From contig CANFCK010000006.1 of assembly GCA_947445035.1 (NCBI GenBank), positions 62,001 to 126,000 on the forward strand: a stretch of 64,000 bases of DNA. Reading direction: 5' to 3'. Origin of the DNA: Deltaproteobacteria bacterium (GTDB lineage: Bacteria; Myxococcota_A; UBA796; SXON01). The position numbers were made by a program, and so were the translations under genes. Below, one piece after another: positions 17,401 to 61,564 of this stretch (the stretch's first letter is position 1; each line of letters starts with the position of its first letter). Below the pieces are notes generated by a model, which saw nothing but the letters and a program-made list of their open reading frames with translations, searched no databases and was not told where the DNA came from.

Positions 17401-18660
17401 CAGGTGCGCGGCTCAACCATTCCGGCGGAGCCGCTGCTCCCTGAGCCGATCCGGCCCGACCCGCTGCCGCGGCTTTTGCTCCCGTCGGGGCGCGTTCCCG
17501 GCCCTCGCACCTGGCCCCCCACGCCGCCCCGCGACGTGCAGCCGCGCTGGCTTGCAGAGGCGGTCGACGCGGTCGGTCTTGAGCTGGCCCGAGAGCGCGG
17601 TGTGCACGTCGTCGCCGGGGGCGGTGTCTTCCAGAAGCCCGGGGACTCGGGCGAGCAGGCCCTGAGCGGCTGGTACGTTCCGGTCGAGGTGATCTTCCCG
17701 CCGGTGGGTTTGGTGCGCCTGAGCCTGGACGCGGTGGTTTTGCAGCTGGACGACCGGGTCGATGAGGCGCTTGGCGTCGCACCCTCCCTCGGGATCGCCA
17801 CCCCGCCCTTCCGGCGATTCTTCGCCACGGCGCGTGTCGGCACCAGCCCGCTTGGATTTGCTCAGGTCAACCCCCTCTGGCACGGGCACGCCCGGTTCGG
17901 CGTGCTGCCGGCGGTGGCCGTTGGTCTTCAGACCGCCCGCACCCCGGTGTCAGATTCGCTTCTGTCCTGGGCGGGCAAGTCGGCGTCGGTCGGGGACGGC
18001 ACCGAGTTCTTCGGCTTTGTGAGCCAGCTCTGGGCGGGGGCCTACGCCAGCTGGACGCCGCGCAATTTGGATCTCGGCCTCTTCGTCAAGGGGGGCTACA
18101 CCGAGGGTTGGGGAATCGAGCCCAATCCGCTGGTAGAAGGCGTGGCGTGGGGGAGCGTCGGCCTGGGCTCGGAACGGGCGTCGCTCCGGGTCGGTGGTCA
18201 GCTCGTCGCCATCCACCACGAGCGTCAGGAGGACGGTTTCTCCATCGGGGAAGGGGGCTATTTCAGCCCGCCCGTCTTCGTCGCCGCGGTGGCCGAGCTG
18301 CGCGGGCGGGCGGACTTCGTCGGCAAGCGTGGGCGCATCTGCGCCACGGTGGCGGCGGGCCCCCAGTACATGGACGGCGAGGCCACGCCCTGGTTCGGCG
18401 AGGGCGTCTCCGGAACTGGGCGCGCCACGGCTGGCATCAGCTGGCGGCTTGGGCCGACCTGGGCGATCGGGGTAGACGGTCGGGTGCAGGGTTCTTTGTC
18501 CGAGGCCAACGGCCAGCCCAATGTGTGGCATCAAGAGGCCGGGCTGGCCCACCTCACCTGGGGCTTGATTCCCCAAGGTCCCGCGGCGCCGTCGCTGACC
18601 ACGCTCGCCTCGTCCGGAGCGGTGCTGCCTTCGACCGGGGACCTGTGTCGCGCGGAGTGA
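14455..18660 (+). CDS. bcsC: Cellulose export outer-membrane protein BcsC (TPR plus barrel)
   Basis: 1401 residues, longer than the ~1150 typical of enterobacterial BcsC. A short signal peptide (WIGTVALAA) is followed by about 1000 residues of TPR-like helical repeats, which in BcsC form a periplasmic scaffold. A proline-rich hinge near 990-1020 leads to the C-terminal BCSC barrel domain, about 350 residues rich in Gly and aromatics. The TPR region shows internal duplication of AEA-x-LLR or DEA-x-A-type helices, and extra repeats explain the added length. It overlaps bcsZ as ATGA and the next gene as TGATG. Confidence 0.9.
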   Translation: MIVLLASFWIGTVALAAPGPEIDALAHAPLSGSARVALAQSLLGRPGWEEVGIEALVRLLDDPAVSGRARTLLVELIGKTDGRPGWAGVYARLLESPEFPGRNLIVLRHAEARLGDASSMRAAVAELDRLLPSADAASARAMGRSLLRAGEARRAQAAFERVGADASARELELLSAIAAGDMARAGELARLGVRAPGAEAAIADPTRSRRAEALSAAGYVTMARLILEGGAVGEVGFQLAQIQRHQGHLTEAVATLLQLCRANPTDDAARRELLAVYIQRHRYFDARKLCTETEVQLALSLDPRVAVEAWRRGARANRLQLLEEAGRAAADDPYISRELGKELLEQGGNDAAALLLIERALDIDPLDDDGLGLSNILGQRTGGAAKAAGRQLSAAALEVSPARRHARLAAAADLLVMDAEARKQTGDVEGALDPYFTALLMDDPAPYELLGAGGLLWQAQYLDGALALFTEGQRQRPKHVPALLGRVRLLTQLGRDDEALAVLLESRSRDPQVALLRRFVENGIRSRDARAAHNAGDLETAVVLWRALAREVPDEPYFQHGLGDALAGLGAYAQALEQYQAAVKGDPKDAWAVLGGANCLVALQKPEDARALVADFYPRGVDPVADHEMPKVLARAWRGTALREQGAGAVLDAFAAWRQALELDPEVFAISGLAALYLERDQPEVALAFADEAIGIEAALVEPVVTRARSLEVMGRWDEARAAAELLRTPTATPQALATRREIVQRIAVQQSEYQRRIGDTAGAIVRLRETIAAEGDSADLWTALASAALDGRDCATAVDGVSRALQSNPKSRWSLGTTVRAASVCKSAEALHPVLQDADRRAGGGFAAAELRSAEFELLVQRAEALHASGDLPEARVPMRFADDLAGHPPDEWARLGGAWLGLASPREAVTAFARALAADPGHVPAIIGMAGALRAQGRLPAAEEHLQAAWDRTRDPRVGLQLVQTMLQRGRHRPAAEALEQVRGSTIPAEPLLPEPIRPDPLPRLLLPSGRVPGPRTWPPTPPRDVQPRWLAEAVDAVGLELARERGVHVVAGGGVFQKPGDSGEQALSGWYVPVEVIFPPVGLVRLSLDAVVLQLDDRVDEALGVAPSLGIATPPFRRFFATARVGTSPLGFAQVNPLWHGHARFGVLPAVAVGLQTARTPVSDSLLSWAGKSASVGDGTEFFGFVSQLWAGAYASWTPRNLDLGLFVKGGYTEGWGIEPNPLVEGVAWGSVGLGSERASLRVGGQLVAIHHERQEDGFSIGEGGYFSPPVFVAAVAELRGRADFVGKRGRICATVAAGPQYMDGEATPWFGEGVSGTGRATAGISWRLGPTWAIGVDGRVQGSLSEANGQPNVWHQEAGLAHLTWGLIPQGPAAPSLTTLASSGAVLPSTGDLCRAE

Positions 18661-45040: not shown

Positions 45041-45496
45041 GCCCTTCCGCGCCCGCCACCGCCGCGCCAGCCACACCCCCGCGCCTCCCGCGATGACGCC
45101 GAGGACCGGCCCCAAGAGGAGGCTGCCGACGAGCATGTCGATGAGCAGCTCGCCACCCTCGGCCAGAATCGGCTCCCATGCGCCGAAGAAATCAACGGTC
45201 GGAAGCCGAAACCCCCGCCCCAAGAACCACGAACCCAGCGCAGCCTCGAGGGCGAGGAGCGGGGGACCAAAAAGTGGATTGCTGATGCCCAGGCCAAGGA
45301 GCACGAGCGCATGATTGAGTCGGAGGACCCTCGCGACCAGGATTCCGAAGATCACGTGGAATCCCCAGAACGGACTCGCGCCCACGAAAACGCCGGTGAA
45401 GAGGGCCCAGAAGATGCCGGACGGCTCCAGATGGGAGGTCAGTTCGGTCCGGAGCGCGGCTTTCGCGCGTTCCCAGCGCTCCCTGAACCACCGCAT
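45035..45496 (-). CDS. DUF2062 membrane protein
   Basis: 153 residues from MRWFRERW; a longer version starting at 45526 is possible. Hallmarks of DUF2062 are visible: PSGIFWALFTGVFVGASPFWG, ILVARVLRLNHALVLLGLGISNPLFGPPLLALE and two C-terminal hydrophobic helices. Members of this family often sit near outer-membrane lipid or glycosyltransferase genes, and the ACP/ketosynthase cluster begins just beyond, on the opposite strand. Molecular function is unknown. Confidence 0.85.
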   Translation of the reverse strand: MRWFRERWERAKAALRTELTSHLEPSGIFWALFTGVFVGASPFWGFHVIFGILVARVLRLNHALVLLGLGISNPLFGPPLLALEAALGSWFLGRGFRLPTVDFFGAWEPILAEGGELLIDMLVGSLLLGPVLGVIAGGAGVWLARRWRARKGS

Positions 45497-45588
45497 CGTG
45501 TCTGCTCCCCGAGAAGCGGCGCGCATATCCGGCCGGGGCGCTTGGAGTGCGGGAGAGGCCGCTGCGCCGGTCGCGAGTCACCCTTTTC

Positions 45589-45858
45589 ATGTTAATGGGT
45601 GGCGTGGAACTACAGGACTCGCTCAAGGAGATGGTGGTTCGCGTGCTCCTGCTCGAAGGTGTGAAGCCGGCCGAAATCGGGACGGACGAGACCCTTTTCG
45701 GGGGGAGCCTCGGCCTGGATTCGGTCGACGCGCTGGAGCTGGCGATCCACATCGAGGAGGAGTTCAAGGTCCGCATGCCGGAGGGCGAGGGCGCCCGCGA
45801 GGCGTGGCGCTCGGTTGGCACCATCGCGTCGTACATCGAGGCGCGGCGGACGGCGTGA
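45589..45858 (+). CDS. Acyl carrier protein (first of two)
   Basis: About 89 residues. Phosphopantetheine attachment site S45 in SLGLDSVDALELA. The four-helix acidic ACP layout is clear, with EMVVRVLLLEGVKPAEI as helix one. ATG 45589 (MLMGGVELQ) is preferred; ATG 45595 is possible. It opens the tightly packed lipid-synthesis operon, and its stop overlaps the deacetylase start as GTGA. It is not part of a standard fab locus; the operon looks like a specialised fatty-acid or polyene pathway. Confidence 0.9.
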   Translation: MLMGGVELQDSLKEMVVRVLLLEGVKPAEIGTDETLFGGSLGLDSVDALELAIHIEEEFKVRMPEGEGAREAWRSVGTIASYIEARRTA

Positions 45859-46583
45859 CGCGCGGAGAAGCAGGCGTGCTGGCTTGCTGTGGAGCGGCGG
45901 TCGGCGCGGTCGCAGTGGGTTGGTGGCTCGTCGCGGGCATGCTTGTGCTCGGCGCCCTGGGCGTCGGCGCGCTGGCCTCGGCTCGCCCGGGGCTGGGCCT
46001 CTTCGGAGCGTCGATCCAGACTGTGCCCGAGGGTATCGCCCTGACGATCGACGACGGCCCCGACCCAGCCTCGACGCCCCGGCTGCTGGCCATCCTGGAC
46101 GCGGCGGGGGTGCGCGCCACCTTCTTCTTCCTCGGCGATCGAGTCCGTCGGCACCCGGACCTGGTCTGCGAGGTGGTTCGTGCCGGGCACGACGTGGGGT
46201 TGCACGGGTTGACGCACAGCGCCTTTCTCACGTGGGCCTCGCCGTCCGCCGGGGAGGCGTGGTTGCGAGAGGGAGTGGGCGCTCTGGCCGCCGCGGGCGC
46301 CCCTGCGGTGCGGTTTTTCCGGCCCCCGTTCGGCGTCGTCAGCCCGCGGCTTTTTTCGTCCGCAAGGGCGGCGGGACTCGCGGTCGTATGGGTGAGCGTG
46401 CGGACGGGGGACGGCGTCCCGATCTCAGCCGCGCGCCTCCGCAAGCGGCTCGCCAGCGCGGTTTCAGGGGATATCGTGCTGATTCACGAAGGCAACGCCA
46501 CCACCCTTCAGGAGTTGCCCGTCGCGCTCGCTGCGTGGACCGCCCGGACCCGCGTGGGAAGCCTTGCTGAGCTGATTCCGTGA
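45855..46583 (+). CDS. NodB-type polysaccharide deacetylase, membrane-anchored
   Basis: 242 residues. Two short N-terminal hydrophobic segments (GVLACCGAAVGAVAVGWW, LVAGMLVLGALGVGALA) are followed by a NodB domain. Motif 1 TIDDGPDP (T64-D67) holds the catalytic base and metal Asp, motif 2 is H117-G-L-T-H121, motif 3 RPPFG, and motif 5 IVLIHEG. It deacetylates N-acetyl-amino groups in known relatives. Location between an ACP and a ketosynthase is odd: its substrate may be a sugar head group of the operon's lipid. Start and stop overlap both neighbours as GTGA. Confidence 0.88.
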   Translation: MTRGEAGVLACCGAAVGAVAVGWWLVAGMLVLGALGVGALASARPGLGLFGASIQTVPEGIALTIDDGPDPASTPRLLAILDAAGVRATFFFLGDRVRRHPDLVCEVVRAGHDVGLHGLTHSAFLTWASPSAGEAWLREGVGALAAAGAPAVRFFRPPFGVVSPRLFSSARAAGLAVVWVSVRTGDGVPISAARLRKRLASAVSGDIVLIHEGNATTLQELPVALAAWTARTRVGSLAELIP

Positions 46584-48151
46584 AGGTGGTCGTCACTCGC
46601 ATGGACGCGTGGACAGCCGCAGGCCGTGGGGTCGAGTGCCTTTGCGACGCGTTGGTCGCTGGGCACAGCCTGGGCCGGCCCCTCGAAGGGTTTTCGACGC
46701 CCGTCGCCTCGATTCCAGAAGCGGTAGACGCGGAGACGCTGCTTGCCGAGGTGGTCGCTGCGGTCTTGCCCCGGGACAGAGGGCGCGTGGGTCTCGTCGT
46801 CGCGACCACCTCCGGGGCCATTTCCGGCAGCTTCGAGGCCTGGATGCGCCGGGGGGCGCCGCCGGAGGAGGAGCGGGGCTGGCGGGCCGAGCCCGGGCGG
46901 GCGGTGGCGCGGCGCTTCGGGTTGGACCCGGTGCTCACCGTGTCGGTGGCGTGTGCGTCGGGGACCGCCGCGTTCGAGATCGCGGCGGCGTGGTTGCGCG
47001 CCGGGCGTTGCGACGCCGTGGTCGTGGCGGGGGTCGAAAAACACTCCTTCTACATTCACGCGGGCTTCGCCGGCCTTGGCGCCCTGGGCCCGAAGGGCGC
47101 GCGCCCGTTTGCGGCCGATCGCGACGGACTCCTCCTCGGTGAGGGCGCTGCTGCCGTCCTCCTGGAGCCGGCCAACACCGCGACGGTCGCGCTGGCCGAG
47201 CTAGCGGGAGTGGCGACGAGCCAGGACGCCTTCCACCTCACAGCGCCGCGCCCGGACGGAGACGGCCTGGCCCGGGCGATTCGTGTTGCGCTCGGGCGAG
47301 CGGGTTTGACTGCCGATGAGATCGACGTTGTGAGCGGACACGGCACGGGCACGGTACTCAACGACGCGGCTGAAGCCAGGGCGCTGTCGGCCGTTTTCGG
47401 GAATTCTGTGCCGCTTCACGCCATCAAGGGCGTGGTGGGCCACTGCCTCGGCGCCGCGGGGGTCATCGAGGCCGTCGTCTGTGTGGCGGCCTTCGGCGGC
47501 GCCGACCTTCCCAGGCCCCCCGAAACCCCGCTCCTCGGCGTCCGCGCGCCGACGGCGATCGACAACTGCGTTTCGGTGAACGCTGCGTTCGGGGGGGTCA
47601 ACGCCGCGGCCGTTTTTTGCCGGGTGGGGCGCCAGCACGTCCCGCCGTGGCCCGCTCCCTCACCCGATCGCGGGGCGATGACATCGTCGCGACTGGCCTC
47701 CTTCGAGATGCACGCCCTCCCCCTCGCCGAAATCTGGCCCGACGCGCCGCCCGCCCTCGGTCGCGCCGACCGCTACACCAGGGCCGGCGTCCGCCTCCTC
47801 CGCGAGGTCGCCTCTCAGCTCGACGATGAGACGCTGGTGGTGCTGCACAGCGCCACCGACTGTCGTGCCGCCGACCTCCGCTACTATGCGGGTGTGCTCG
47901 CCCGCGGAATCACCGGCGCGTCGCGACTCCACTTTCCGTACACCATCCCTGGTTCTCCGCTGGCCGAGGGTTCGATCGCGGCTGGGCTCGGCAATCCGGC
48001 CTGGGTGCTGTGCGAAGGAGACGTCGAGCGCGTCGATCCTGCGACGCTCCTGCGGGGTAGCGGTTATCGACATCTCGTCCTGTGCTCGGTCGAGGCTCCC
48101 TCGGACGATCCCCACTCCTCCGTCCGCGCCTCCGCCACGCTGTACACATGA
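46580..48151 (+). CDS. Ketosynthase fused to a degenerate KS-like (chain-length-factor-type) domain
   Basis: 523 residues. Residues 1-350 are a KAS with the full Cys-His-His set: C125 (VACASGTA), H254 (SGHGTGTV) and H288 (IKGVVGHCLGAAG). A Pro-rich linker (about 353-366) joins a ~155-residue second domain (ETLVVLHSATDCRAADLRYY, FPYTIPGSPLAEGSIAAGL). This resembles the small ketosynthase-like, chain-length-factor protein of aryl polyene clusters and has no clear catalytic triad. Normally these are separate genes; here no stop lies between. The start overlaps the deacetylase as GTGA; the end overlaps the dehydratase as ATGA. Confidence 0.87.
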   Translation: MKVVVTRMDAWTAAGRGVECLCDALVAGHSLGRPLEGFSTPVASIPEAVDAETLLAEVVAAVLPRDRGRVGLVVATTSGAISGSFEAWMRRGAPPEEERGWRAEPGRAVARRFGLDPVLTVSVACASGTAAFEIAAAWLRAGRCDAVVVAGVEKHSFYIHAGFAGLGALGPKGARPFAADRDGLLLGEGAAAVLLEPANTATVALAELAGVATSQDAFHLTAPRPDGDGLARAIRVALGRAGLTADEIDVVSGHGTGTVLNDAAEARALSAVFGNSVPLHAIKGVVGHCLGAAGVIEAVVCVAAFGGADLPRPPETPLLGVRAPTAIDNCVSVNAAFGGVNAAAVFCRVGRQHVPPWPAPSPDRGAMTSSRLASFEMHALPLAEIWPDAPPALGRADRYTRAGVRLLREVASQLDDETLVVLHSATDCRAADLRYYAGVLARGITGASRLHFPYTIPGSPLAEGSIAAGLGNPAWVLCEGDVERVDPATLLRGSGYRHLVLCSVEAPSDDPHSSVRASATLYT

Positions 48152-48573
48152 CCTTTCCTGCGCCCGACACCCTGATCCCGCACCGCGGGGCGTCGATGTA
48201 CCTCTCCGAGGTGGTCACGTTTTCTGCGGATGAACGCCGACTGTCGGCGCGCGCGCGGATCTCCGCGGAGGCGTTCGCCGGCCACTTCCCTGGGCAGCCG
48301 ATCCTGCCGGGGGTGGTGATGATCGAGATGCTGGCCCAGGCGCTCGCGTGTTGTGGCGCGCTCTTGGGCGAAGCGGGCCTTGGCATGCTGACCGGGGTGG
48401 AGCGGGCCCGATTCCGTGGGGTGGTCCGGCTCCCGTCCGAGCTCCGGGTCGAGGTGCAGATCACCGACCGACGCTTTGGGCTGACCCTGGCCAAAGGCAG
48501 CGTTTTCGCCGACGGCAAGGTCGTCTGCACCGCGCAGTTGCAGGCGGTGCTCGTCCCGGAGGGCCAGACGTGA
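48148..48573 (+). CDS. FabZ-like 3-hydroxyacyl-ACP dehydratase
   Basis: 141 residues, hotdog fold. IPHRGASMYLSEVV matches the FabZ N-terminal helix, and AGHFPGQPILPGVVMIEMLAQ carries catalytic His46 and Glu60. It removes water from 3-hydroxyacyl-ACP to give a trans-2-enoyl chain, the step that makes polyenes if enoyl reduction is skipped. No enoyl reductase is encoded nearby. Both ends overlap neighbours (ATGA, GTGA). A standard FabZ has about 150 residues, so the length fits. Confidence 0.9.
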   Translation: MTFPAPDTLIPHRGASMYLSEVVTFSADERRLSARARISAEAFAGHFPGQPILPGVVMIEMLAQALACCGALLGEAGLGMLTGVERARFRGVVRLPSELRVEVQITDRRFGLTLAKGSVFADGKVVCTAQLQAVLVPEGQT

Positions 48574-50102
48574 GCGGTGGCCGTCGGGTGGCGGCGGTCG
48601 TGGGCTCGGGCCCGGCGGGGTTGACGGCGGCGATCCTCTTGGCCCAACGCGGGTGGCAGGTGACGGTATTCGAGCAGCACTACCGGGCAGGTGGGTGCCT
48701 GCACCGATTCTTCCGCAAGGGCGTCGGGTTCGACACCGGCTTTCACTATGTCGGCAGCGCCGATGCCGGTCAGTCCTTCGGGCAGGTGCTTCGCCACCTT
48801 GGCGTGGCGGACCAGGTGCAGCTCCGGCCGCTCGACCCCGATGGCTTTGACATCCTGCGCTTTCCTGACTTCGAGTTCCGTGTCCCTCGTGGGGTGGATC
48901 AGTGGGCGGCGCGGCTGTGCGAGACTTTCCCCAACGAGGCGGCTGGCGTGGCCCGCTACGTGGCGATTCATCGTGAGTGCATCGCTGCCTATGGGCTCTA
49001 CTCACTCGATGCCAGCGTGCCTCCGGAGGCGATCCTGCCATGGGAGGAGCGGTCGCTCGACAGCGTTCTGGAGGCGTGTTTCGACGATCCGCGCATCAAG
49101 GCGGTGATCGCCGGGCACGGCGCCCCGCTGTACGGCGTCGGTCCCGCTGAGGCGCCGTTCGGGCTCCACGCGGTGGTGACGGATCACTTCCTGGGCGGCG
49201 CCAGCAGCATCGTCGGGGGAGGGGACCGGCTCGCGCAGGTGCTCGTCGCGCGGCTGGTCCAGCTGGGCGGGACGGTCCGCCTTCGTTGTGGGGTCGCGTC
49301 GATCCGCACCGAAGGTGGGGTTGCCGCCGGTCTGGTTCTGGAGTCGGGCGAGTCGGTCGCGGCCGAGCTGGTGGTCGCGGCCATTCACCCCAAAGCCGTG
49401 CTGGCGATGTTGCCGGTCGGCGCGGTCCGGCCGGCCTACCGGGAGCGCGTCGAGTCGGCTCGCTCGGGCATGGGCCACATCGGCGTGTACCTTGAGGTCG
49501 AGGGCGATCTGAGCCCGCTGCGCGCGGCCAACCTCTACCGTTACGCGTCCTGGAGCGTGGATACCGCCGGAGACCTGCCCTTCTGGTTCCTCACCGCCCC
49601 CGGGGCCAGGGGCGAAGATGCCGGCGTGGTGCTCGGCTTGTTCCCGACCGATTGCGTGTCGTGGGCACAGTGGGCGGGCGACCTCGGAAAGCGGCCCGGA
49701 GGCGCGCCGGAGCGCCCGGCCGAGTACGAGGCGGAGAAACAGCGATTGCTGGCGCTTTTCGTGGCCAGCGTGCAGGCGGAATTCCCCGATTGGACCATTC
49801 GCCGCGCCGAAGCCAGCACCCCGCTGACGATGGCGCACTACACGCGCGTTCCCCAGGGCGCGACCTACGGCCACCACCACGCCATCGACCAGATGGGGCG
49901 CTACCGCCTGCCGGTGCTCACCCGCGTGCGGGGGCTCGTCCAGGTCGGGCAGGCGGTGGCCATGCCGGGAATCTGTGGCGCGATGATGAGCGCGTATCTG
50001 GGCGTCGGCAGCATCGACGGACTCGGGCCGCTGATCGAGGCGGTTCGTTCCGCATGCCGCGAGGCCCTTCCCCTTGGCCTTGATACGCTGCACCCGGCAT
50101 GA
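48570..50102 (+). CDS. CrtI/retinol-saturase-like FAD oxidoreductase
   Basis: 510 residues from a GTG. An N-terminal FAD Rossmann motif VVGSGPAGLTAAILL precedes AGGCLHRF and the FDTGFHYVG segment typical of phytoene desaturase/CRTISO and retinol saturase relatives. Central GAPLYGVGPAEAPFGLHA and C-terminal GQAVAMPGICGAMMSAYLG complete the family pattern. Such enzymes desaturate, saturate or isomerise conjugated polyenes. In this operon it probably acts on the enzyme-bound or released acyl chain. It overlaps the dehydratase (GTGA) and the next KS (ATGA). Confidence 0.88.
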   Translation: MSGGRRVAAVVGSGPAGLTAAILLAQRGWQVTVFEQHYRAGGCLHRFFRKGVGFDTGFHYVGSADAGQSFGQVLRHLGVADQVQLRPLDPDGFDILRFPDFEFRVPRGVDQWAARLCETFPNEAAGVARYVAIHRECIAAYGLYSLDASVPPEAILPWEERSLDSVLEACFDDPRIKAVIAGHGAPLYGVGPAEAPFGLHAVVTDHFLGGASSIVGGGDRLAQVLVARLVQLGGTVRLRCGVASIRTEGGVAAGLVLESGESVAAELVVAAIHPKAVLAMLPVGAVRPAYRERVESARSGMGHIGVYLEVEGDLSPLRAANLYRYASWSVDTAGDLPFWFLTAPGARGEDAGVVLGLFPTDCVSWAQWAGDLGKRPGGAPERPAEYEAEKQRLLALFVASVQAEFPDWTIRRAEASTPLTMAHYTRVPQGATYGHHHAIDQMGRYRLPVLTRVRGLVQVGQAVAMPGICGAMMSAYLGVGSIDGLGPLIEAVRSACREALPLGLDTLHPA

Positions 50103-51319
50103 AGCGGGTCGTGATCACCGGGATGGGGCTGTGCACGCCGCTCGGATCAGATCCGACTGCGGTGTACGAGGCGATGTTGTCCGGCGAAAGTGGGATCGAG
50201 CGCATCCCCAGTTTTGCGGCGGTTGCGGACCTCGCGGTGGTGCTCGGGGGCCCGGTCCGCGGCTTCGAGGCGCAGCGGATTCCTCGGAAGTATCGGCGCT
50301 CGATGGCCCGAATGGCGCAGTACGCCGCCGCCGCCGCGGCCGACGCCGTGGCCCAGGCACGGATCCCCGAGACGCACTTCTCCGCAGGGAAGGTGGCCAT
50401 CTGCGCCGGCTCCACCACCGGCTCTCCCGACGCCATGGAGGAGTTTTTTCGAGAGTACCTCTCCACCGGCAGCATTCGGGGGGTGTCGGGCACGGCGTTC
50501 CTCCGGGTGATGTCGCACACGGTCCCCGCCCACCTCGCCCTGGTCTTCGGCAGCACCGGTCCGGTCCATACCGCGGCTTGTGCCTGTGCGATCTCGAACC
50601 AGGCGGTGGGGATGGGCTTGGATCTTTTGCGGCTGGGCCGAGCCGAGGTCGCGCTGTGCGGGGGGGCCGACGAACTTTCGGTTCTGGGCGCAGCAACCTT
50701 CGATCTCGTCGGCGCGGCGGTGCGCGGCTGGGGTGACAAGCCCACCGAGCGGCCGGCACCCTTCGATGCCTCTCGCGACGGCGTGGTGGTGGCAGAGGGG
50801 GCGTCGATGCTGGTCCTAGAAACCCTCGAACACGCCCAGGAGCGAGGTGCCACCGTGCTGGCGGAGGTGCTCGGTTACGGCGAGAGTTGCGACGCCACCC
50901 ATATGTCCAGCCCCGAGCCCATCGGGATGCGGCAGGCGATGGAGCGGGCCTTGGTCGACGCGGGCTGCGTGGCTTCCGACATCGAGTACGTCAACGCCCA
51001 CGCCACCGGCACCACGATCGGCGACGCCGCCGAAGCCCAGGCCACCTTCGAGGTCTTCGGTCCCGACGTCCCGGTATCGAGCTTCAAGGGCCACTTCGGC
51101 CACACCCTCGCCGCGTGTGGCGGAATCGAGCTGGCGATGAGCATCCTCGGCATGCGAGGTGGGCTCATGCCTCCCACCAAGAATCTGCGCTCTCCCGACG
51201 TCGCGGGAATCCGCCTTTTGACCGAGCCCCTGGCGCTCTCGCCGCGGCGCTTCGTGTCGAACAACTTTGCGTTCGGCGGCATCAACGCCAGCGTGGTGAT
51301 CGGCCGCTTCGAGGGGTGA
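50099..51319 (+). CDS. FabF-like beta-ketoacyl-ACP synthase
   Basis: 406 residues. Catalytic C163 (in AACACAISNQAVG), H301 (NAHATGT) and H335 (KGHFGHTLAACG) are all present, as in FabF/KAS II. The N-terminus RVVITGMGLCTPLG is typical. It is a second chain-elongating synthase beside the KS/KS-like fusion, a doubling seen in aryl polyene clusters. The ATG overlaps the oxidoreductase stop. An ACP gene follows 16 bases later. Confidence 0.93.
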   Translation: MKRVVITGMGLCTPLGSDPTAVYEAMLSGESGIERIPSFAAVADLAVVLGGPVRGFEAQRIPRKYRRSMARMAQYAAAAAADAVAQARIPETHFSAGKVAICAGSTTGSPDAMEEFFREYLSTGSIRGVSGTAFLRVMSHTVPAHLALVFGSTGPVHTAACACAISNQAVGMGLDLLRLGRAEVALCGGADELSVLGAATFDLVGAAVRGWGDKPTERPAPFDASRDGVVVAEGASMLVLETLEHAQERGATVLAEVLGYGESCDATHMSSPEPIGMRQAMERALVDAGCVASDIEYVNAHATGTTIGDAAEAQATFEVFGPDVPVSSFKGHFGHTLAACGGIELAMSILGMRGGLMPPTKNLRSPDVAGIRLLTEPLALSPRRFVSNNFAFGGINASVVIGRFEG

Positions 51320-51335: not shown

Positions 51336-51668
51336 ATGAACCCGCTTCGAGACGAGGATCGCGTGCAGTCGGCGGAGACGATCATCGAGGAGCTCAACAG
51401 CATCCTCATCAAACAGTTTGAGGTAGAACCTGGGCATATCCACGCCGATGCTCGTCTTCGTGATGATCTGGACCTCGACAGCCTCGACGCGGCCGACCTG
51501 CTCATCGCCATCGAGAAGCGTTTTCGCGTCCGGCTCGATGATGTCGAAGTCCGCAAGCTCACCACGGTAGGTGAAATGCATGCCTACGTGCGCCAAGTGG
51601 TGGCCGACGCGGCTACGGGGCGGCTGAGCCAGACTGCCGCGAGCGACCAGTCGGTGTCCGGCTCGTAG
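51336..51668 (+). CDS. Acyl carrier protein (second of two)
   Basis: 110 residues. Ser49 in DDLDLDSLDAADLL is the phosphopantetheine site. The helical ACP core spans about 12-93. A polar tail (GRLSQTAASDQSVSGS) is longer than in housekeeping ACP. It is the last gene of the coupled operon. Paired ACPs with distinct sequences suggest one for chain building and one for transfer to an acyltransferase, by analogy with aryl polyene systems; that division is inference. Confidence 0.9.
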   Translation: MNPLRDEDRVQSAETIIEELNSILIKQFEVEPGHIHADARLRDDLDLDSLDAADLLIAIEKRFRVRLDDVEVRKLTTVGEMHAYVRQVVADAATGRLSQTAASDQSVSGS

Positions 51669-54162: not shown

Positions 54163-55752
54163 TCAATCCTGCCAAAAGTCATGGAAGTTGTACCACTGTT
54201 CTGGGTAACGCCGCGCCCAGCCGGCCAGGATGTCGGCGTAGGCCTGGGCCCACTCGCGGAGCTGCTCGTCCCGGGGTCGCGAGCGATCGAAGACCGGCGA
54301 CATCGGGGGCGCGGTGAGCAGTCGGTAGGTGCCGCCACCCTCGTGGAAGTTGCCGACGATGATGACCGGCACTCTGGCCAGGGCCGCCACCAGCCACGGA
54401 CCGGCGGGGAAGTCGGCTGGATGGCCGAGGAACTCGGCCCGCACGGAGCGCTCGTCCACCGCTCGGTCGCCATGCATCGCCACCACGGCCCCGGCGCGCA
54501 GTCGGCGGACGATCTCGATCGCCGCGAAGCCCTCGGTCTGATTCACCGCCAAAATCGACGGACGCCACGCTTCCGGGGTGTTTTCCATCACCCTCTGCCA
54601 GGGGTCGTGGGCGCCGACGAAGCGCACGATGTGGATCCGACGCAGGCGCTCGGGGAGGGCCGAAGCGCCCGTCGCGACCTCGATGTTGCCGAGGTGACCG
54701 GAAAGGAGCACCGCGCCGGACTTGCCCTGAAACACCGTCACCAACGGATCGACCCCGTCGTGTTTTTGTCGGAGGCGGCCGGGCCCGAGCGCCAGGAACG
54801 CCAGCCGGTCTAAAAGCGCCGTCGCATACGACGAGAACGTGACATACGAGGATCGTCGTGAGCCTGCACGTTCGTTGAAGCGGTTTATATTATGTCGCGA
54901 CGACGGATTGATCAGCCAATAGAAAACGCACGCCAACTGAACGAACGGCGCCACGAACGTCGGACCGAGGGTCTGCACCCCCCAGATCGCCGCCCGCCAC
55001 CCCACGACGACGCCGCGGGTGCGCCCCGTCCACGGCAACCGCTCCCGCGCCGCCGGCCATAGCCGCGGGTCCACGAGCCGCCGAAGGACCAGCCGGGTGT
55101 TCATCAGGCTGATGCGAACGTTGTCCCAGAAGGGGTGAAAACTCGTGACCCGCTGGGAAGGCGGAGGGTAGTAGACCTTGCAGGGGAGGTCGAAGACCGG
55201 CGTTCCCCGCCATAGACACCGCGTCAGGACCTCAACCTCCATGTCGTATCGGCGGCCGTCCAAGCCCAGCGCGAGCACCGCCTCGATGGGGTACGCGCGG
55301 AACCCGCACTGGCTGTCGGCCACCCGCCACCCGGTCTCGGCCCAGATCCAAAAGTTGGAGAAGGCGCGACCGAATCGGCTTTTTCCGGGCGCCGTCGCAA
55401 GGTCTCTGACCCCCGCGACGATCGCGTTGGGATGGCGATGGCAGGCAGTTGCAAAGCTGGGAATGTCCTCCGGATCGTGCTGGCCATCGCCGTCGAGGCA
55501 GATCGCGTGGGTGTGTCCGGCGGCGCGGAGTCGGGCCATCCCCGTCAAAAGCGCCCGCCCCTTGCCAAGGTTGTCCGCGTGTACGACCAGGGTGGCGCCC
55601 GCGGCCTTCGCCGCCTCACCCGAGCCGTCGGTGCTGCCATCGTCGACGACGTAGACCGCGAGCCCGTGGGCGCGCGCGCGCGTCGCGACACTCGCGACGG
55701 AGCCGATGTTGTTGTAGGTCGGGATGAGGACGGCGGGACGGACGGCGCTCAA
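54163..55752 (-). CDS. GT2 glycosyltransferase fused to LpxL-like acyltransferase
   Basis: About 529 residues. The N-terminal half is a DPM1-like GT2: VLIPTYNN, DDGSTD at 37-42 and LDGDGQHDPED with D87/D89. The C-terminal half is a lauroyl/myristoyl-type acyltransferase with H353-x4-E358 in GHLGNIEVA. Fusions of this kind belong to aryl polyene-type clusters, where they probably add a sugar and an acyl group to the lipid. The TTG start (55752) puts the GT2 strand directly at the N-terminus; translation could start further upstream, overlapping the exporter gene's stop. It is the last gene of the minus-strand set. Confidence 0.87.
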   Translation of the reverse strand: MSAVRPAVLIPTYNNIGSVASVATRARAHGLAVYVVDDGSTDGSGEAAKAAGATLVVHADNLGKGRALLTGMARLRAAGHTHAICLDGDGQHDPEDIPSFATACHRHPNAIVAGVRDLATAPGKSRFGRAFSNFWIWAETGWRVADSQCGFRAYPIEAVLALGLDGRRYDMEVEVLTRCLWRGTPVFDLPCKVYYPPPSQRVTSFHPFWDNVRISLMNTRLVLRRLVDPRLWPAARERLPWTGRTRGVVVGWRAAIWGVQTLGPTFVAPFVQLACVFYWLINPSSRHNINRFNERAGSRRSSYVTFSSYATALLDRLAFLALGPGRLRQKHDGVDPLVTVFQGKSGAVLLSGHLGNIEVATGASALPERLRRIHIVRFVGAHDPWQRVMENTPEAWRPSILAVNQTEGFAAIEIVRRLRAGAVVAMHGDRAVDERSVRAEFLGHPADFPAGPWLVAALARVPVIIVGNFHEGGGTYRLLTAPPMSPVFDRSRPRDEQLREWAQAYADILAGWARRYPEQWYNFHDFWQD

Positions 55753-55783
55753 CGCGGGACCCGCACAACGCAGCGGGTCATGA

Positions 55784-58700
55784 TCAACGGGCCTCCGTCG
55801 CGGCGCGCTCACGTTCCAGGTGCACCCGAAGGCTGCGGACCGGGTCGTCGGCGCCGGCGGCGATGGCCCCATCGAGTTCATCTGCCAGCAGATCGGCCAG
55901 GCGGAAGGTCACGAACTCGCCCGCGACGTTGGGCCACGCGCCCACGGTGATCGACCGAGCGGTCGCGTCGATCACCACGCCGTGCGCGGCGATGTCCGCG
56001 TTGATCGCCCGCTCGTCTCCGTCGGGGTAGCCCCCGCGATCGCGAAGCAGCTCGATGGCGCGGCCGATGTCCACCGGCCGTTCGTCCAAGAGCGCCTGCA
56101 TCCGATCCAGACGCACCACCGTGGTCCCGTGGGCCATGCGCTCGACGTTGAGCGTGTCGCCCGCGTGTCGTCCGCGCAAGTGATTGGACTGCGCCAGATG
56201 GGTGCCCGCGGACCGGCGCTCAACCCCGTCCGGCGTCACCTCGAAGATCGCGGCTTCGCCAGCTTCCCCGTCGACCACCAGCACCGCTTCGCTCACAAAA
56301 CCGGCGCGTGCCCGCACGATCGCCTCGGCCTCATCCAGGGACCGCGCCGAATCGAGCACCTCCCGCGCGATGAAGATCATCGGGGCTCCGGGGCGCACCG
56401 GCGAATCCGAAGCTGCGGCCTGCAAGGCGATCCCGATACCGGCTTCGTTGACGCCGCTCACGACGCCGGCGAGCCCCATCATCGCCACCGACACATAGGG
56501 AATCGCGCCGTCCCGACGCACCGCGATGACCGCTTTGTCTTCGGAAAAGGGGTCCCCGCCGCCAAAGTCCCAATTCCGCGCCAGGAGCCAATGCCCATCC
56601 GCGGTCCATTGCCCGCCGGCGACAAAGCCGGTGCACCCGTCGAGCATCGGCGTCCCGACCATCGCCTGACCGACGTCGTGCAGCGCGTGCATCATCAGTT
56701 TTCGGGTGTAGGTGGGCGCGAGCCAACGCCAAGGGTCGGCGCCGATTTGGGTGTAGGCGGCGAGCTCTTCTAGGTAGGCGGGTGGGCTGTCGGTGACGAT
56801 GGCGCGCCCCAAGAACGGCAATCCGCGCGCCAGCCCGTACTGGACAAACCGGTTGGGCACCAGCCGGTTGAAGGTGCGGTAGAGATCGGCCTCTGCACGG
56901 TCGCGGATCGGTCCGCTCAGGTGGGCTGCGGCCTCGCCGATCTCGGCTGGCGTACCGGAAAGTGTCGCGACCCATATTCCCTGCGAGCGGGTGATGCGGT
57001 GGGGGCCAAAGCGACGGTCCGTGGCTGAGCGAACGTCGAGCTGGTGGACGGCGGGCAGGGTCACCGACGGCGGGGGGATGCGGCCGGCGAGCGCGAGCAT
57101 TTGGTCGAGGACGAAGAAGCCGACGAGGGCGAACGCGCCGTGGCGCAGCCATCGTCGCGTGGTCAGGGGGTTTTCGAGCAACGCCGGCGTCAGCACGAAG
57201 GCGCCGAACGCGGTCGAGGCGATGCCAAGGGTCACCACCAGACCGACCCCCCGGACGGCGGGGTGGCTGGCGGCCAACAAACCGGCGAAGCCCGCAAAGG
57301 CGTTTGCCAGGGCCATCAGGATTGCCGCGCGGGCGGCAAGGAAGCCGCTGCGGCCGCTCTGTTCCCCTTCAACCAGGAATATCCCTTGGTCGAAGGCAAG
57401 TCCGAGTACCAGCACCAATGCGGGCCCGCTGGCCGGGGTCAGGGCGTGCCCGAAAAGCGCGTGACAACCTAGGGTTCCGGCCACGGCCGCCAACGATGGC
57501 ATCGCCGCCGCCAGCACGCGGACCGGGTCCCGAAAGCGCACCGCGAGGTAGAGGAGGACCAGCCCCAGCGCGAGCCCGGAGCGGGTCAGGAGTTCGGTTC
57601 GGATATGCTGCGCGCCCAGCTCGGCGAGGCCGGCCGGGTGGATGAAGCGCGCGTCGGCGCCACTGAGCTCGACCTCGTACTGGGCGTGCCGCAGGGCCTC
57701 GGGCGACATCGCGCGGAGCAGCGCGGCGACCGTGGCGCGGCCTCGTTCGTCGACACGTACCGTACGCCCGAGCAGCTCGGCGAGGGGGGTCTCAGCCCAC
57801 GTCGTCAAGCTCGGGGCGCGGGTGGCGGTGAGCGTGGCACGAAGCCCGGGGAGGAGGGTCGCGGCGTCGAAGCCCGCCACGTCGGCGGCAATGGCGAAGT
57901 CTGCCTCGATTCTGACCACATCCGCGACCGCGTCGGCTCGGGCCTGACGCTCGGCGGGTCCCGGTAGCAGCCCCAGCGGGGACTGGACCTGGACCCCGGG
58001 CGCCCGCTGGCTCAGCGCCGTCACCGCCGGCGACAGCGCCGCGAGCGCCTCGTCGAGGGTGGCGCCCTCGGCCACCACCAGGGCAGCCGTGGTGCCGAGG
58101 TGGGGCGTCGTACGTGTTGGTATGGACGTCGCGCCGCCCATCCACCGCGCGTCCAGCTCCGCCTCGAGCGCCGCCGTCGGCGCTGTGCGCGCATCGAGCG
58201 AGCGGGGATCGCCGTCGAAGCGGACCCCCACCGCCACCGCGGCCAGGGCGCAAAGCCCCACGATCCCGACCGCGGCGAGCCATCCAGGCACCCGCTCCGG
58301 AAGCGGGATGGACGGCACCCGGTCGCCGGGACGCGCCAGCGAGGCGTACAGCAGCGGCCCCACCAGGACCACGCAGACCAGGGCGCCGAGCACGGCGCCG
58401 ATGCCGATCAGACCCAGGTCCGACACCGCGGGGTAGGCGCTGGACACCAGCATTGCGAAGCTGGTGACGGTCGCCAGCACCGAGATCGCGTAGGCGCCAC
58501 CGAGGTGACGGAGGGCCTCTCGACCCTGAGCAAGCCGGGTGGCGAAGTTTTCCCCGACCCCGTCTTTCTGGGCGTGCAGGTACAGGTGAATCCAGTAGTC
58601 GACCCCGAGGCCAGCCAGCGCACCGCCAAAGGCCAGCGTCAGACCGTGCACTGGCGAGCAGAACGACGCTGCCGCCCCCGCCAGACCCGCCCCAAGAAGC

Positions 58701-59524
58701 GCCGGCGGCAGCGTGCCCAAGAGCGGCCGCACCGATCGGAATGCGAGCAGGAAGACCGCCGCGACCAGGGCGATGCCCGCGCCGACGGCCACCTGCGTCT
58801 CACTCTGGATGGTCTCGCGGGCCTCGGCCGCGAACTTCGCGCTGCCGAGCCACCGGGCAGGCAGGGGCGTGGCCGCCAGCTCGGCTTCGAGTGTTTTGTA
58901 CAGCGGTGACGCCCGCGTCGTGCCGAAGGCCGCGCCCTTGGTGCGCACGAGCAGCAGTCCGTGGGTGCCGGTCGTGTCCAGGAAATGGCCTCCGACCACG
59001 GCAATGCCCTCGCCGGCGCCGGCCTGTTGCATCGACGCGGTGACGGTACTCCCGAGATCGAGCGGGTCCGTCGGCAAGAGCGCGGCGACGAGCCCGCCGG
59101 TGGGGCCGCTGAGCCGCGCGGCCGCAGCCTGGAGCGCGACGGTGAGCCCGGCGGGGGTGGTGGTCTCGCGCAGCCAGCCTTCGTCCACGAGCACCGCAAG
59201 GTGCGGCGCCGCCGCGTTGTGAATGGCGACGGCATCGGCCAGGGTCACGCGGTAGCGGACAGAGAAAAGCTCGGGGTGGGCTTCGAGCCGGGCGCCGAGG
59301 TTGTCGATCGCCTCGCCCAGCGCCTCGGGCCGCGCCGAGCCGTCGACGTCGACCAGGATGGTGTCGAGCAGCGAGAAACGTTGGGCCTCGGCGTAAGCCT
59401 CGGCGAACCCACCCTTCGTCGGCAGCGCATCGAGCAGGTTGGTCGACACCTCGGTGCGTACGGCGAAGGCCAGCGAGAGCCCGAGGAGCGCCAAAAGCGC
59501 CAAAAGTTGGCGATGCGGCGTCAT
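55784..59524 (-). CDS. MMPL/RND lipid exporter fused to a C45 Ntn-hydrolase acyltransferase
   Basis: 1246 residues. Residues 1-~840 form an MMPL-type RND exporter: N-terminal helix, periplasmic loop, a first bundle with GGALAGLGVDYWIHLYLHA and a second bundle with LVLVLGLAFDQGIFLVEGEQ, the conserved GxxxD-type helix 4 motifs. A short hydrophobic stretch (about 825-845) leads to a C-terminal ~380-residue C45 (acyl-CoA:6-APA acyltransferase-like) domain with probable nucleophile C964 in LDGCTGFVAGGQ, then LARNWDF and SNHLRG. This Ntn-hydrolase would be periplasmic and could acylate or deacylate the exported lipid. The start overlaps the LolA-like gene as ATGA. Confidence 0.88.
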   Translation of the reverse strand: MTPHRQLLALLALLGLSLAFAVRTEVSTNLLDALPTKGGFAEAYAEAQRFSLLDTILVDVDGSARPEALGEAIDNLGARLEAHPELFSVRYRVTLADAVAIHNAAAPHLAVLVDEGWLRETTTPAGLTVALQAAAARLSGPTGGLVAALLPTDPLDLGSTVTASMQQAGAGEGIAVVGGHFLDTTGTHGLLLVRTKGAAFGTTRASPLYKTLEAELAATPLPARWLGSAKFAAEARETIQSETQVAVGAGIALVAAVFLLAFRSVRPLLGTLPPALLGAGLAGAAASFCSPVHGLTLAFGGALAGLGVDYWIHLYLHAQKDGVGENFATRLAQGREALRHLGGAYAISVLATVTSFAMLVSSAYPAVSDLGLIGIGAVLGALVCVVLVGPLLYASLARPGDRVPSIPLPERVPGWLAAVGIVGLCALAAVAVGVRFDGDPRSLDARTAPTAALEAELDARWMGGATSIPTRTTPHLGTTAALVVAEGATLDEALAALSPAVTALSQRAPGVQVQSPLGLLPGPAERQARADAVADVVRIEADFAIAADVAGFDAATLLPGLRATLTATRAPSLTTWAETPLAELLGRTVRVDERGRATVAALLRAMSPEALRHAQYEVELSGADARFIHPAGLAELGAQHIRTELLTRSGLALGLVLLYLAVRFRDPVRVLAAAMPSLAAVAGTLGCHALFGHALTPASGPALVLVLGLAFDQGIFLVEGEQSGRSGFLAARAAILMALANAFAGFAGLLAASHPAVRGVGLVVTLGIASTAFGAFVLTPALLENPLTTRRWLRHGAFALVGFFVLDQMLALAGRIPPPSVTLPAVHQLDVRSATDRRFGPHRITRSQGIWVATLSGTPAEIGEAAAHLSGPIRDRAEADLYRTFNRLVPNRFVQYGLARGLPFLGRAIVTDSPPAYLEELAAYTQIGADPWRWLAPTYTRKLMMHALHDVGQAMVGTPMLDGCTGFVAGGQWTADGHWLLARNWDFGGGDPFSEDKAVIAVRRDGAIPYVSVAMMGLAGVVSGVNEAGIGIALQAAASDSPVRPGAPMIFIAREVLDSARSLDEAEAIVRARAGFVSEAVLVVDGEAGEAAIFEVTPDGVERRSAGTHLAQSNHLRGRHAGDTLNVERMAHGTTVVRLDRMQALLDERPVDIGRAIELLRDRGGYPDGDERAINADIAAHGVVIDATARSITVGAWPNVAGEFVTFRLADLLADELDGAIAAGADDPVRSLRVHLERERAATEAR

Positions 59525-60123
59525 GGCGCCGGGTCGGGCACCGGCACCCCGTCAAGCACGACCTTTGAAAAGCGAATCTCGACCGTATCGCCGGTCGGCT
59601 CGACGATCCGCACGTGGGCGACCCGAAAGGGACTCTCGGCGATGCCGAGCTCGATCGTTTTCACCAGACGCCCCAGCGTCGGGTCGACCGGGATCAGCAC
59701 GATCGTGGGCGGCGACGGCGCGTAGGTGGTGGTGAAGTCGCGTGCCACCGCCACCGGGTCGGCCTGTAGCCACACCATCACGCTCGCGGCCAGCCGCTTG
59801 AACTCCGGGAGCGTTGCGAGGTCGACCACCCGGTGGGCGCGGTGATCAGGCAGCTCCATGGTGGCCTTTCCACCGCCCATGGAGAACGTAGACCGCGCCG
59901 GAGTCAAGACCGCCCAGGTCAGCGTGCCGGGACGATCGAAGCGCACGGCCCCGCTGCTCTCCAAGGGTCGCTTCAGAATCGTCCTTGTTTGAACCTGAAT
60001 AAAATCTGCTTGCAGGCTCTGGACCTTGCCGAGTTCAAGCCACACGCTCGCGTCGAGGGCCATCGCTGGCCGCGGGAACGCCATGAGGAGGGCGAGGGCG
60101 AGCGGGAACAGGCGGCGTGGCAT
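59521..60123 (-). CDS. LolA-like outer-membrane lipoprotein/lipid carrier
   Basis: 200 residues with a signal peptide ending AMA. The LolA-like fold shows as LQADFIQVQT, KRPLESSGAVRFDRPGTLTWAV and VRIVEPTGDTVEIRFSKVVLDGV. It shuttles lipids or lipoproteins across the periplasm. In aryl polyene clusters a LolA-like protein accompanies the MMPL exporter, as it does here by ATGA overlap. It is the first gene of this minus-strand unit; the divergent acyltransferase starts within 40 bases, so both promoters must be close or overlapping. Confidence 0.87.
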   Translation of the reverse strand: MPRRLFPLALALLMAFPRPAMALDASVWLELGKVQSLQADFIQVQTRTILKRPLESSGAVRFDRPGTLTWAVLTPARSTFSMGGGKATMELPDHRAHRVVDLATLPEFKRLAASVMVWLQADPVAVARDFTTTYAPSPPTIVLIPVDPTLGRLVKTIELGIAESPFRVAHVRIVEPTGDTVEIRFSKVVLDGVPVPDPAP

Positions 60124-60160
60124 GGGGCGGGGTTAACGAGTGCGCCTGAGGAGCGGAGGG

Positions 60161-61564
60161 TTGGAGCGTCGGGTCAGCGTGTGGCGTCGGGTGCTGTGGC
60201 TGACCGAGGCCTTCGCGTTTTGCAGCACCACCCTCTTGACCCTGCTGGTGGCCGTGCCGTTGCAGCTTTTGGCCCTGCCCTGGGACCCCGATCGGCGGGT
60301 CTCCAACCTGCTCGCCGGGGCGATCTGGGGGCGACTCCACTTCTTCCTGAATCCGTTTTTCTCAACCACCTGGACCGGGGTCGAGCGCCTCAGCGTCCGG
60401 GGCTCCATCCTCGTGGTGAACCACCAGTCGCTCCTCGATATTCCGCTTTTGCTGATGCTCCCGACCCAGCTTCGCGTGACCGCGCGGCCCGGCGTCTTCC
60501 GCATGCCGGTGTACGGGTGGATGGCGGCCTTTGGGGGGCACGTGGCGATTGATCCAGAGGCCGACGTCGATGGATTGGTCGCACGCATCGGGGGCCTCCT
60601 GGATCGCGGCATCTCGATTGTCGTCTTTCCGGAGGGGACACGAGGCGATGGCAAAACGCTTCGTCCGTTCAAACGTGGCGCGTTCGAGCTTGCGATCCGC
60701 ACCGGAGCACAGCTCGTGCCGGTGTGCTTGAGGGGAACCGCGGACGGCATGCCCGTGGGTTCGGTAGGCGGCCTGCGCGGGCGCTGCCACATGCGAGCGC
60801 ACATCCTGCCGCCGGTGCGCGTGGTCGACGCGACCCGGCGTTCGCTCGCTCGCGCCACCCGGGAGGCAATCGAGGCTTGCCTTCTGGGGCCCGATCCCTT
60901 CGAGGTGTCGGAGGGCTGTTTTCGGCGGTACCGGAGGCTCGGGCGGTGGGCTGCGGGTTTTGCTCAGTGGAAGACCCGGCTGGACCCCGCGTACTGGGCA
61001 GCCTGGGAACGGCTCCCGCGGACGGGGTTGGTGCTTGACGTCGGCGCGGGCGAGGGGCTCTTGGCCAGCTACCTTCGCGGGTGCGGCAGCACGGTCACCA
61101 CCTGGGGAGTCGACGTGGACGCAGCGAGAATCGGCCGAGCCCAGGCCGTCTGCGAGGCTGATGACACCTATGTGATCGGGGATGCCCGCACCGCCGAGTT
61201 TCCCGGCGGCGCGGCCGCGGTCGTGGCGCTCGACGTGCTGCACTACCTCCCCGAGCCCGAGCAGGAGCGTCTCCTGGTCAAGATGGTCGCCGCCTTGGCG
61301 CCGGGGGGCGTGCTTCTGGTCCGGGACCCCGCGGCGGGTTCGGCGGGCTTGGTCTCCCGGACGCTGGAGCGCCTGGCGGTGGCTGTCGGCCGCCACGAGG
61401 GCGCGGGGGTCAACGCCGGTGGCGGCGAGCGGCTTGCAGAGGTGCTCAGGCCGCTTCTGGACGACGTCCGCATCGAAGACGCGTCAGCCGGTCCGCTCGG
61501 GAATGTGTTTGTTTCGGGGCGGCGGGGCGCCGGTGCGCAGCCCGGAGGCCCTGGGCCGGCGTAG
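60161..61564 (+). CDS. PlsC-like acyltransferase fused to a SAM methyltransferase
   Basis: About 467 residues. A membrane-associated acyltransferase (residues 1-~250) has NHQSLLD (H-x4-D) and FPEGTR. It is joined to a class I methyltransferase (about 280-430) with VLDVGAGEGLLASYL and ALDVLHYLPEPEQERL. TTG 60161 is preferred because GAGGAG lies seven bases upstream; GTG 60140 is an alternative. Aryl polyene clusters encode acyltransferase and methyltransferase separately. The fusion may attach and methylate the lipid-building unit. It is divergent from the LolA-like gene. Confidence 0.85.
   Translation: MERRVSVWRRVLWLTEAFAFCSTTLLTLLVAVPLQLLALPWDPDRRVSNLLAGAIWGRLHFFLNPFFSTTWTGVERLSVRGSILVVNHQSLLDIPLLLMLPTQLRVTARPGVFRMPVYGWMAAFGGHVAIDPEADVDGLVARIGGLLDRGISIVVFPEGTRGDGKTLRPFKRGAFELAIRTGAQLVPVCLRGTADGMPVGSVGGLRGRCHMRAHILPPVRVVDATRRSLARATREAIEACLLGPDPFEVSEGCFRRYRRLGRWAAGFAQWKTRLDPAYWAAWERLPRTGLVLDVGAGEGLLASYLRGCGSTVTTWGVDVDAARIGRAQAVCEADDTYVIGDARTAEFPGGAAAVVALDVLHYLPEPEQERLLVKMVAALAPGGVLLVRDPAAGSAGLVSRTLERLAVAVGRHEGAGVNAGGGERLAEVLRPLLDDVRIEDASAGPLGNVFVSGRRGAGAQPGGPGPA

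Follow-up and report, generated by a model that had tools for sequence, protein, structure and literature searches.

An MMPL-type transporter fused to a C45 Ntn-hydrolase domain in an ape-like gene cluster of Myxococcota

What would an acyl-handling enzyme do when it is attached to a lipid exporter? The question is raised by a gene at positions 55784–59524 (minus strand) of a 64,000-nucleotide stretch of Myxococcota DNA (contig CANFCK010000006.1 of assembly GCA_947445035.1; the whole stretch is referred to here as the window). In a single frame this gene encodes an MMPL/RND transporter and a C45 domain with the N-terminal nucleophile (Ntn) hydrolase fold. Our analysis indicates that the product probably serves an aryl-polyene-like (ApeM-type) glycolipid pathway as its inner-membrane exporter and carries its own acyl-editing enzyme on the periplasmic side. 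Both halves belong to known families; the novelty lies in their combination, in the anchored placement of the enzyme and in its conserved use in an ape-like exporter, and a partial literature search found no published description of any of the three.

One frame for a transporter and a C45 enzyme

The gene starts with ATG and continues for 1246 codons without a stop. A preliminary description of this DNA had proposed one continuous frame joining the two domains, leaving the strand unstated; the frame, the Pfam matches and the NCBIfam matches bear this out on the minus strand. The plus strand and the alternative frames of the same interval were rejected as coding, since they contain only shorter open reading frames and the plus-strand translation is interrupted by stops. 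The features of the gene, all on the minus strand, are as follows.

55784–59524, minus strand: fusion gene ApeM-C45, an MMPL/RND exporter, transmembrane helix 13 (TM13) and a C45 Ntn-hydrolase, 1246 amino acids (frame, profiles, homologues)
57173–59524, minus strand: MMPL/RND (ApeM/HpnN-like) transporter part, residues 1–784 (MMPL profile, HpnN/HAE3-like scores, full-chain model)
58595–58600, minus strand: Asp309-Tyr310 in TM4, invariant (alignment of 16 fusions)
57389–57391, minus strand: Asp712 in TM10, invariant (alignment of 16 fusions)
57086–57169, minus strand: extra helix TM13, approximately residues 786–813, with RRWLRHG at its start (hydropathy, models); counterpart of the N-terminal anchor of free-standing C45 proteins
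55880–57007, minus strand: C45 (AAT) Ntn-hydrolase domain, approximately residues 840–1215 (Pfam, NCBIfam, model and Foldseek)
56633–56635, minus strand: Cys964, predicted nucleophile and putative N-terminus after self-cleavage between Gly963 and Cys964; invariant in 16 fusions
56567–56578, minus strand: Arg983-x-x-Asp986 (R-N-W-D), the other conserved catalytic-type residues; invariant in the fusion alignment

Pfam MMPL matches residues 210–399 (24.9 bits against a cut-off of 20.5), whereas the C-terminal part matches Pfam AAT at residues 975–1167 (E 4.9e-17; 62.8 bits against a cut-off of 23.2) and NCBIfam C45_proenzyme at residues 856–1190 (154 bits against a cut-off of 85). The HpnN/HAE3-like NCBIfam matches of the transporter part fall below the cut-offs of those models; the HpnN model scored 76.6 bits, well under its cut-off of 751.85. 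The transporter was first described as reaching residue ~840, which is where the C45 domain begins; its end lies earlier, near residue 784, and is followed by a hydrophobic helix at approximately 786–813.

The AlphaFold model of residues 47–1246 (predicted local distance difference test score, pLDDT, 82.6; predicted template modelling score, pTM, 0.77) contains twelve membrane-type helices, the last of them at residues 786–813. This model crops the first helix, so the full protein corresponds to the 12 helices of an RND transporter plus TM13. Hydropathy analysis recovered the majority of the RND helices, along with one more at approximately residues 796–816, after an Arg-rich sequence. The transporter half thus combines the MMPL profile match with 12 helices, two porter loops and a proton-relay Asp/Tyr: Asp309-Tyr310 occupies what we take to be the place of the RND/MmpL proton-relay pair, and Asp712 presumably the second proton-relay position. 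The best Foldseek match of the full-chain model was HpnN (PDB 5khn; E 3e-17), followed by MmpL5/MmpL4. This hopanoid RND transporter (PDB 5khn, 6wu0) is the protein that the transporter half resembles most in structure and sequence, but lacks a C45 domain. By analogy with these relatives and with the neighbouring genes, the transporter half would be an MMPL-type lipid exporter. RND proteins usually have a cytoplasmic N-terminus; combined with 12 helices and TM13, this established topology predicts that the C45 domain lies in the periplasm, in agreement with the preliminary description.

The C-terminal part (residues 785–1246) was modelled by AlphaFold2 with a pLDDT of 91.6 and a pTM of 0.92. 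Its closest Foldseek match was the isopenicillin N acyltransferase precursor (PDB 2x1c; E 8e-18, template modelling score of 0.73 by target length, probability 1.00), with E values for the precursor and mature enzyme ranging from 8e-18 to 1e-15, followed by acid ceramidase (PDB 5u81; E 4e-12) and NAAA (PDB 6dxw; E 3e-10). These matches uphold the earlier assignment of a C45-type enzyme with the Ntn-hydrolase fold. The similarity to the C45/AAT family (including PDB 2x1c and 2x1d) comprises the fold, the position of the cysteine, the conserved Arg-x-x-Asp motif and a precursor-like layout; isopenicillin N acyltransferase, acid ceramidase and NAAA are not fused to transporters, whereas the enzyme here is attached to a membrane exporter.

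The only cysteine of the C45 half is residue 964, within the motif LDG-C-TGF. The family's hallmark of a cysteine following glycine or alanine together with Arg-x-x-Asp is represented by Cys964, Arg983 and Asp986; the counterpart of Asp986 in the isopenicillin N acyltransferase chain is residue 121. Cys964, Arg983, Asp986, Asn1026 and Asn1114 are invariant across the 16 full-length fusions described below, and we assume their roles in Ntn catalysis from general knowledge of the family. Cys964 therefore stands as the predicted nucleophile, as originally suggested, and by analogy with the family the chain would cleave itself directly before this residue. We consider it likely that the C45 domain is periplasmic and catalytically competent.

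Conservation and history of the fusion

Our samples comprised 58 relatives of the host, 379 genomes of the phylum and a pattern-based scan of 84,980 species genomes. Fusion matches were present in 18 of the 58 relatives, representing 10 genera, and in two further genomes of the same order in the phylum sample; the scan returned 21 loci, largely on the same contigs as the whole-genome matches. Across the phylum sample and this single scan, the fusion is restricted to one Myxococcota order, whose members are little-known relatives of the myxobacteria, mostly from fresh water. The window protein and 15 homologues (34–70% identical to it) align end to end as 16 full-length fusions, while matches in a few other genomes end at contig ends and lie outside this set. 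All 16 frames are unbroken, with no internal stop, and come from separately assembled genomes. The fusion first reported from this locus is therefore widely conserved, and its relatives encode the two domains without an intervening stop. An assembly, frame or annotation artefact might be suspected, given that metagenome-assembled genomes make up most of the records, yet unbroken full-length homologues from separate assemblies, down to 34% identity and in constant gene order, make this extremely improbable; the fusion is almost certainly real.

Both halves are under purifying selection, with dN/dS values of 0.10–0.26 in C45 and 0.16–0.30 in MMPL; in seven of the eight pairs, constraint was tighter on C45 than on MMPL. 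In the C45 tree the fusions form one group (support 100/100), within which a single free-standing C45 protein is nested (locus L049, G019:C54:46001-66000). Based on this, one fusion event followed by one later release would be the simplest history. L049 is a second locus in a fusion-bearing genome; its anchored C45 is 56% identical and adjoins genes for an LpxL-type acyltransferase, a methyltransferase and an ApeK-like thioesterase. With the exception of the window protein and its two nearest relatives, most members extend further at the C-terminus; in L049 this extension matches a tetratricopeptide repeat. The fusion of genome G008 (L046), from the window's own genus, groups with two fusions of family f3 (L045, L048) at ~35% identity to the window, a pattern suggestive of horizontal transfer or an old duplication. 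This Myxococcota-type locus is also carried by two public metagenome bins (L081, L082) whose record titles name Klebsiella pneumoniae and Bifidobacterium breve; these titles look mislabelled.

The ape-like cluster and free-standing C45 proteins

The genes surrounding the fusion correspond to those of an aryl polyene (ape) cluster in many, although not all, respects.

59521–60123, minus strand: LolA-like periplasmic carrier (ApeL-like), overlapping the fusion start by 4 bases (Pfam LolA 1.3e-10)
54163–55881, minus strand: ApeJ-like family 2 glycosyltransferase (GT2) and LpxL-type acyltransferase, start uncertain (Pfam; tblastn with E. coli ApeJ, E 1e-60)
60140–61564, plus strand: lysophospholipid-type acyltransferase and methyltransferase (ApeD-like; Pfam, ape comparison)
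45315–46583, plus strand: polysaccharide (NodB-type) deacetylase, membrane-anchored (Pfam 2.7e-25); its true start is later than that of the frame, and the domain spans ~46029–46385
45547–45858, plus strand: acyl carrier protein 1 (ApeE-like)
46580–48151, plus strand: ketoacyl synthase 1 (ApeO-like)
48082–48573, plus strand: FabA-like dehydratase
48348–50102, plus strand: CrtI-like FAD oxidoreductase
50099–51319, plus strand: ketoacyl synthase 2
51336–51668, plus strand: acyl carrier protein 2

The LolA gene adjoins the fusion in nearly all relatives, and the order LolA, MMPL-C45, DUF3261 (ApeN-type), ApeJ is kept in most loci. In 15 relatives the DUF3261 gene separates the fusion from ApeJ. 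The window locus lacks it, nor was it found in the rest of the host genome; in its place, the end of the fusion overlaps the ApeJ frame (55784–55881). The two activities of the ApeD-like protein are fused in one frame in the window, whereas its halves match as separate pieces in L045 and L046. A halogenase-like FAD protein is encoded near the deacetylase in L037 and L045. Outside the cluster, the window contains a frame of 1401 amino acids (14455–18660, plus strand).

The comparison system was the ape cluster of E. coli CFT073, in which ApeM (c1191) is the RND/MMPL transporter (gene functions from PMC8253772). Both clusters encode an ApeJ-type GT2/acyltransferase, LolA (ApeL), ketoacyl synthase, acyl carrier protein and dehydratase, and relatives of the window also share DUF3261 (ApeN). 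In contrast to the fusion, E. coli ApeM is encoded by a separate 2319-base MMPL gene without C45, and the E. coli cluster has the thioesterase ApeK, the starter ligase ApeH and the ketoreductase ApeQ. No close homologue of these three was found by tblastn or profile search in the window and 24 kb downstream of it, and we therefore call the cluster ape-like and do not file it as an aryl polyene cluster. The polyene cluster of the preliminary description is thus retained as a lipid/polyene-type neighbourhood with ketoacyl synthase, acyl carrier proteins, dehydratase, the attachment gene ApeJ and the export genes LolA and RND exporter, and not in respect of ApeH, ApeQ and ApeK.

Direct tblastn-level similarity of the fusion transporter to E. 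coli ApeM is weak (E 8e-4). Its putative identity as ApeM is supported by the unfused ape-type clusters of five other Myxococcota genomes (L096–L100), which contain ApeJ, ApeK and MMPL with no adjacent C45: in all five, the match to the fused transporter lies inside the cluster beside ApeJ. Weak, distant C45 relatives occur elsewhere in some of these genomes. Trifunctional fusions of MMPL, lysophospholipid acyltransferase and methyltransferase are also known from a pigment-type cluster of Bacteroidota, although we found no paper under that name; their acyltransferase is a different, cytoplasm-type enzyme.

Free-standing C45 proteins of the phylum start with one N-terminal membrane helix, an anchor of the same type as TM13, and the fusion accordingly looks like an exporter joined to a complete anchored enzyme. 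Among 40 free-standing C45 loci, GT2 was encoded on the same strand within 1.6 kb in 20, LolA in 13 and both in 12, whereas MMPL was found within 3 kb on the same strand in none. As GT2 and LolA also flank the fusion, they appear as recurring partners of this C45 type. The trio GT2-C45-LolA lies on one strand in another Myxococcota family (L062, L063, L071, L110, L111, L113–L117, L119 and L121), with LolA confirmed by Pfam at L062 and L071. It shares with the fusion the domain, the single helix and the partners, and differs in that C45 is a separate protein with no MMPL nearby; we did not find it described in the literature searched, and it is possibly an undescribed envelope glycolipid module. 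L063 and L068 seemed at first to join GT2 and C45 in one frame; this reading was rejected, as Pfam gives only an AAT match for these long frames of high GC content. Five loci of family f32 (L064, L065, L066, L067 and L069) encode full-length anchored C45 proteins with Asn, Phe, Val or Ala in place of the catalytic cysteine; these possible pseudoenzymes group together in a single clade (100/100).

What the attached enzyme may do

We propose that the exporter half would take a pigment-like lipid from the inner membrane, driven by the proton-motive force, and that the C45 half, activated through self-cleavage before Cys964, would form an acyl-enzyme and add, remove or swap an acyl group on the exported glycolipid before the finished lipid is handed to LolA and on to the outer membrane. 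C45 relatives for the most part make or break amides, and an amide-linked group is the most likely target; the site would be an amino sugar that ApeJ adds and the NodB-type partner deacetylates. Co-occurrence points the same way. The fusion and ApeJ are found in exactly the same 18 of 58 relatives, and the deacetylase in 15 of these 18 genomes compared with 0 of the 40 other relatives, which suggests a free amino sugar in the pathway. A deacetylase, a glycosyltransferase and an amide-handling enzyme would together fit N-acylation of a sugar amine from a membrane lipid donor, and acyl removal would fit equally well.

Several observations weigh against this proposal. The deacetylase often lies on another contig of a draft assembly and was seen in only three of the stretches around other fusions. 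Three genomes (G059, G067 and G280) have the deacetylase and ApeJ without the fusion, which led us to reject a deacetylase tied solely to the C45 fusion and indicates that the deacetylase does not require C45. The co-occurrence counts are phylogenetically non-independent, and the GT2-C45-LolA clade has only a weakly supported position as sister group (81/59). With no close ApeH, ApeQ or ApeK homologue in the window, the lipid need not be an aryl polyene. The C45 family includes hydrolases, so that acyl addition and removal would both be compatible with the data, and it is difficult to point to a donor in the periplasm apart from phospholipid or lipoprotein. On balance we still favour an enzyme acting on the cluster's own lipid. 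That the exporter, through its self-maturing Ntn acyltransferase, performs N-acylation or trans-acylation of its own cargo where this emerges into the periplasm, uniting export and final assembly in one polypeptide, is a tentative proposal somewhat short of an even chance, and N-acylation of a free amino sugar specifically is doubtful.

The fold relatives acid ceramidase, NAAA and the bile-salt and penicillin acylases are hydrolases, and anchored free-standing C45 proteins exist outside ape-type clusters. The domain could thus be a periplasmic amidase or deacylase of general or defensive function (for example, against foreign N-acyl compounds) that is simply tethered to the exporter. We regard this as unlikely, as C45 is strictly linked to ApeJ and LolA among the fusions and to GT2 and LolA in a different family, a pattern that points to lipid assembly. 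A purely structural role is decidedly unlikely: C45 would fold, perhaps cleave itself, and dock LolA or switch assembly without turning over a substrate. The family that lost the cysteine indicates that the fold can be retained without catalysis, and the partners LolA and GT2 do recur, but every member of the fusion clade keeps the nucleophile and the catalytic residues around it, and C45 generally evolves under tighter constraint than the transporter does. We find it improbable that C45 stands in for the thioesterase ApeK, releasing the polyene acyl chain from its carrier or transferring it to a lipid. Each of the five unfused clusters examined has an ApeK-like gene, no such gene was seen at the fusion loci searched, and C45 enzymes can use thioesters; against this, acyl carrier protein thioesters are cytoplasmic whereas the C45 domain is predicted to be periplasmic, and free-standing C45 proteins have the same anchor.

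Periplasmic editing of the exporter's own cargo, the interpretation we prefer, bears on two poorly understood matters: how an MMPL pump hands its lipid to a periplasmic carrier, and where outer-membrane lipids are finished. This natural fusion suggests that export and acyl editing belong together and that the lipid is finished as it leaves the inner membrane. It also names the partners, namely ApeJ, LolA, the DUF3261 protein and the polysaccharide deacetylase, and in Cys964 it provides a single residue through which cargo editing during RND lipid export becomes directly testable. It further offers a possible role for the membrane-anchored C45 proteins of Myxococcota. If this is true, the GT2-C45-LolA operon would represent a separate, undescribed module for outer-membrane glycolipid assembly in other Myxococcota.

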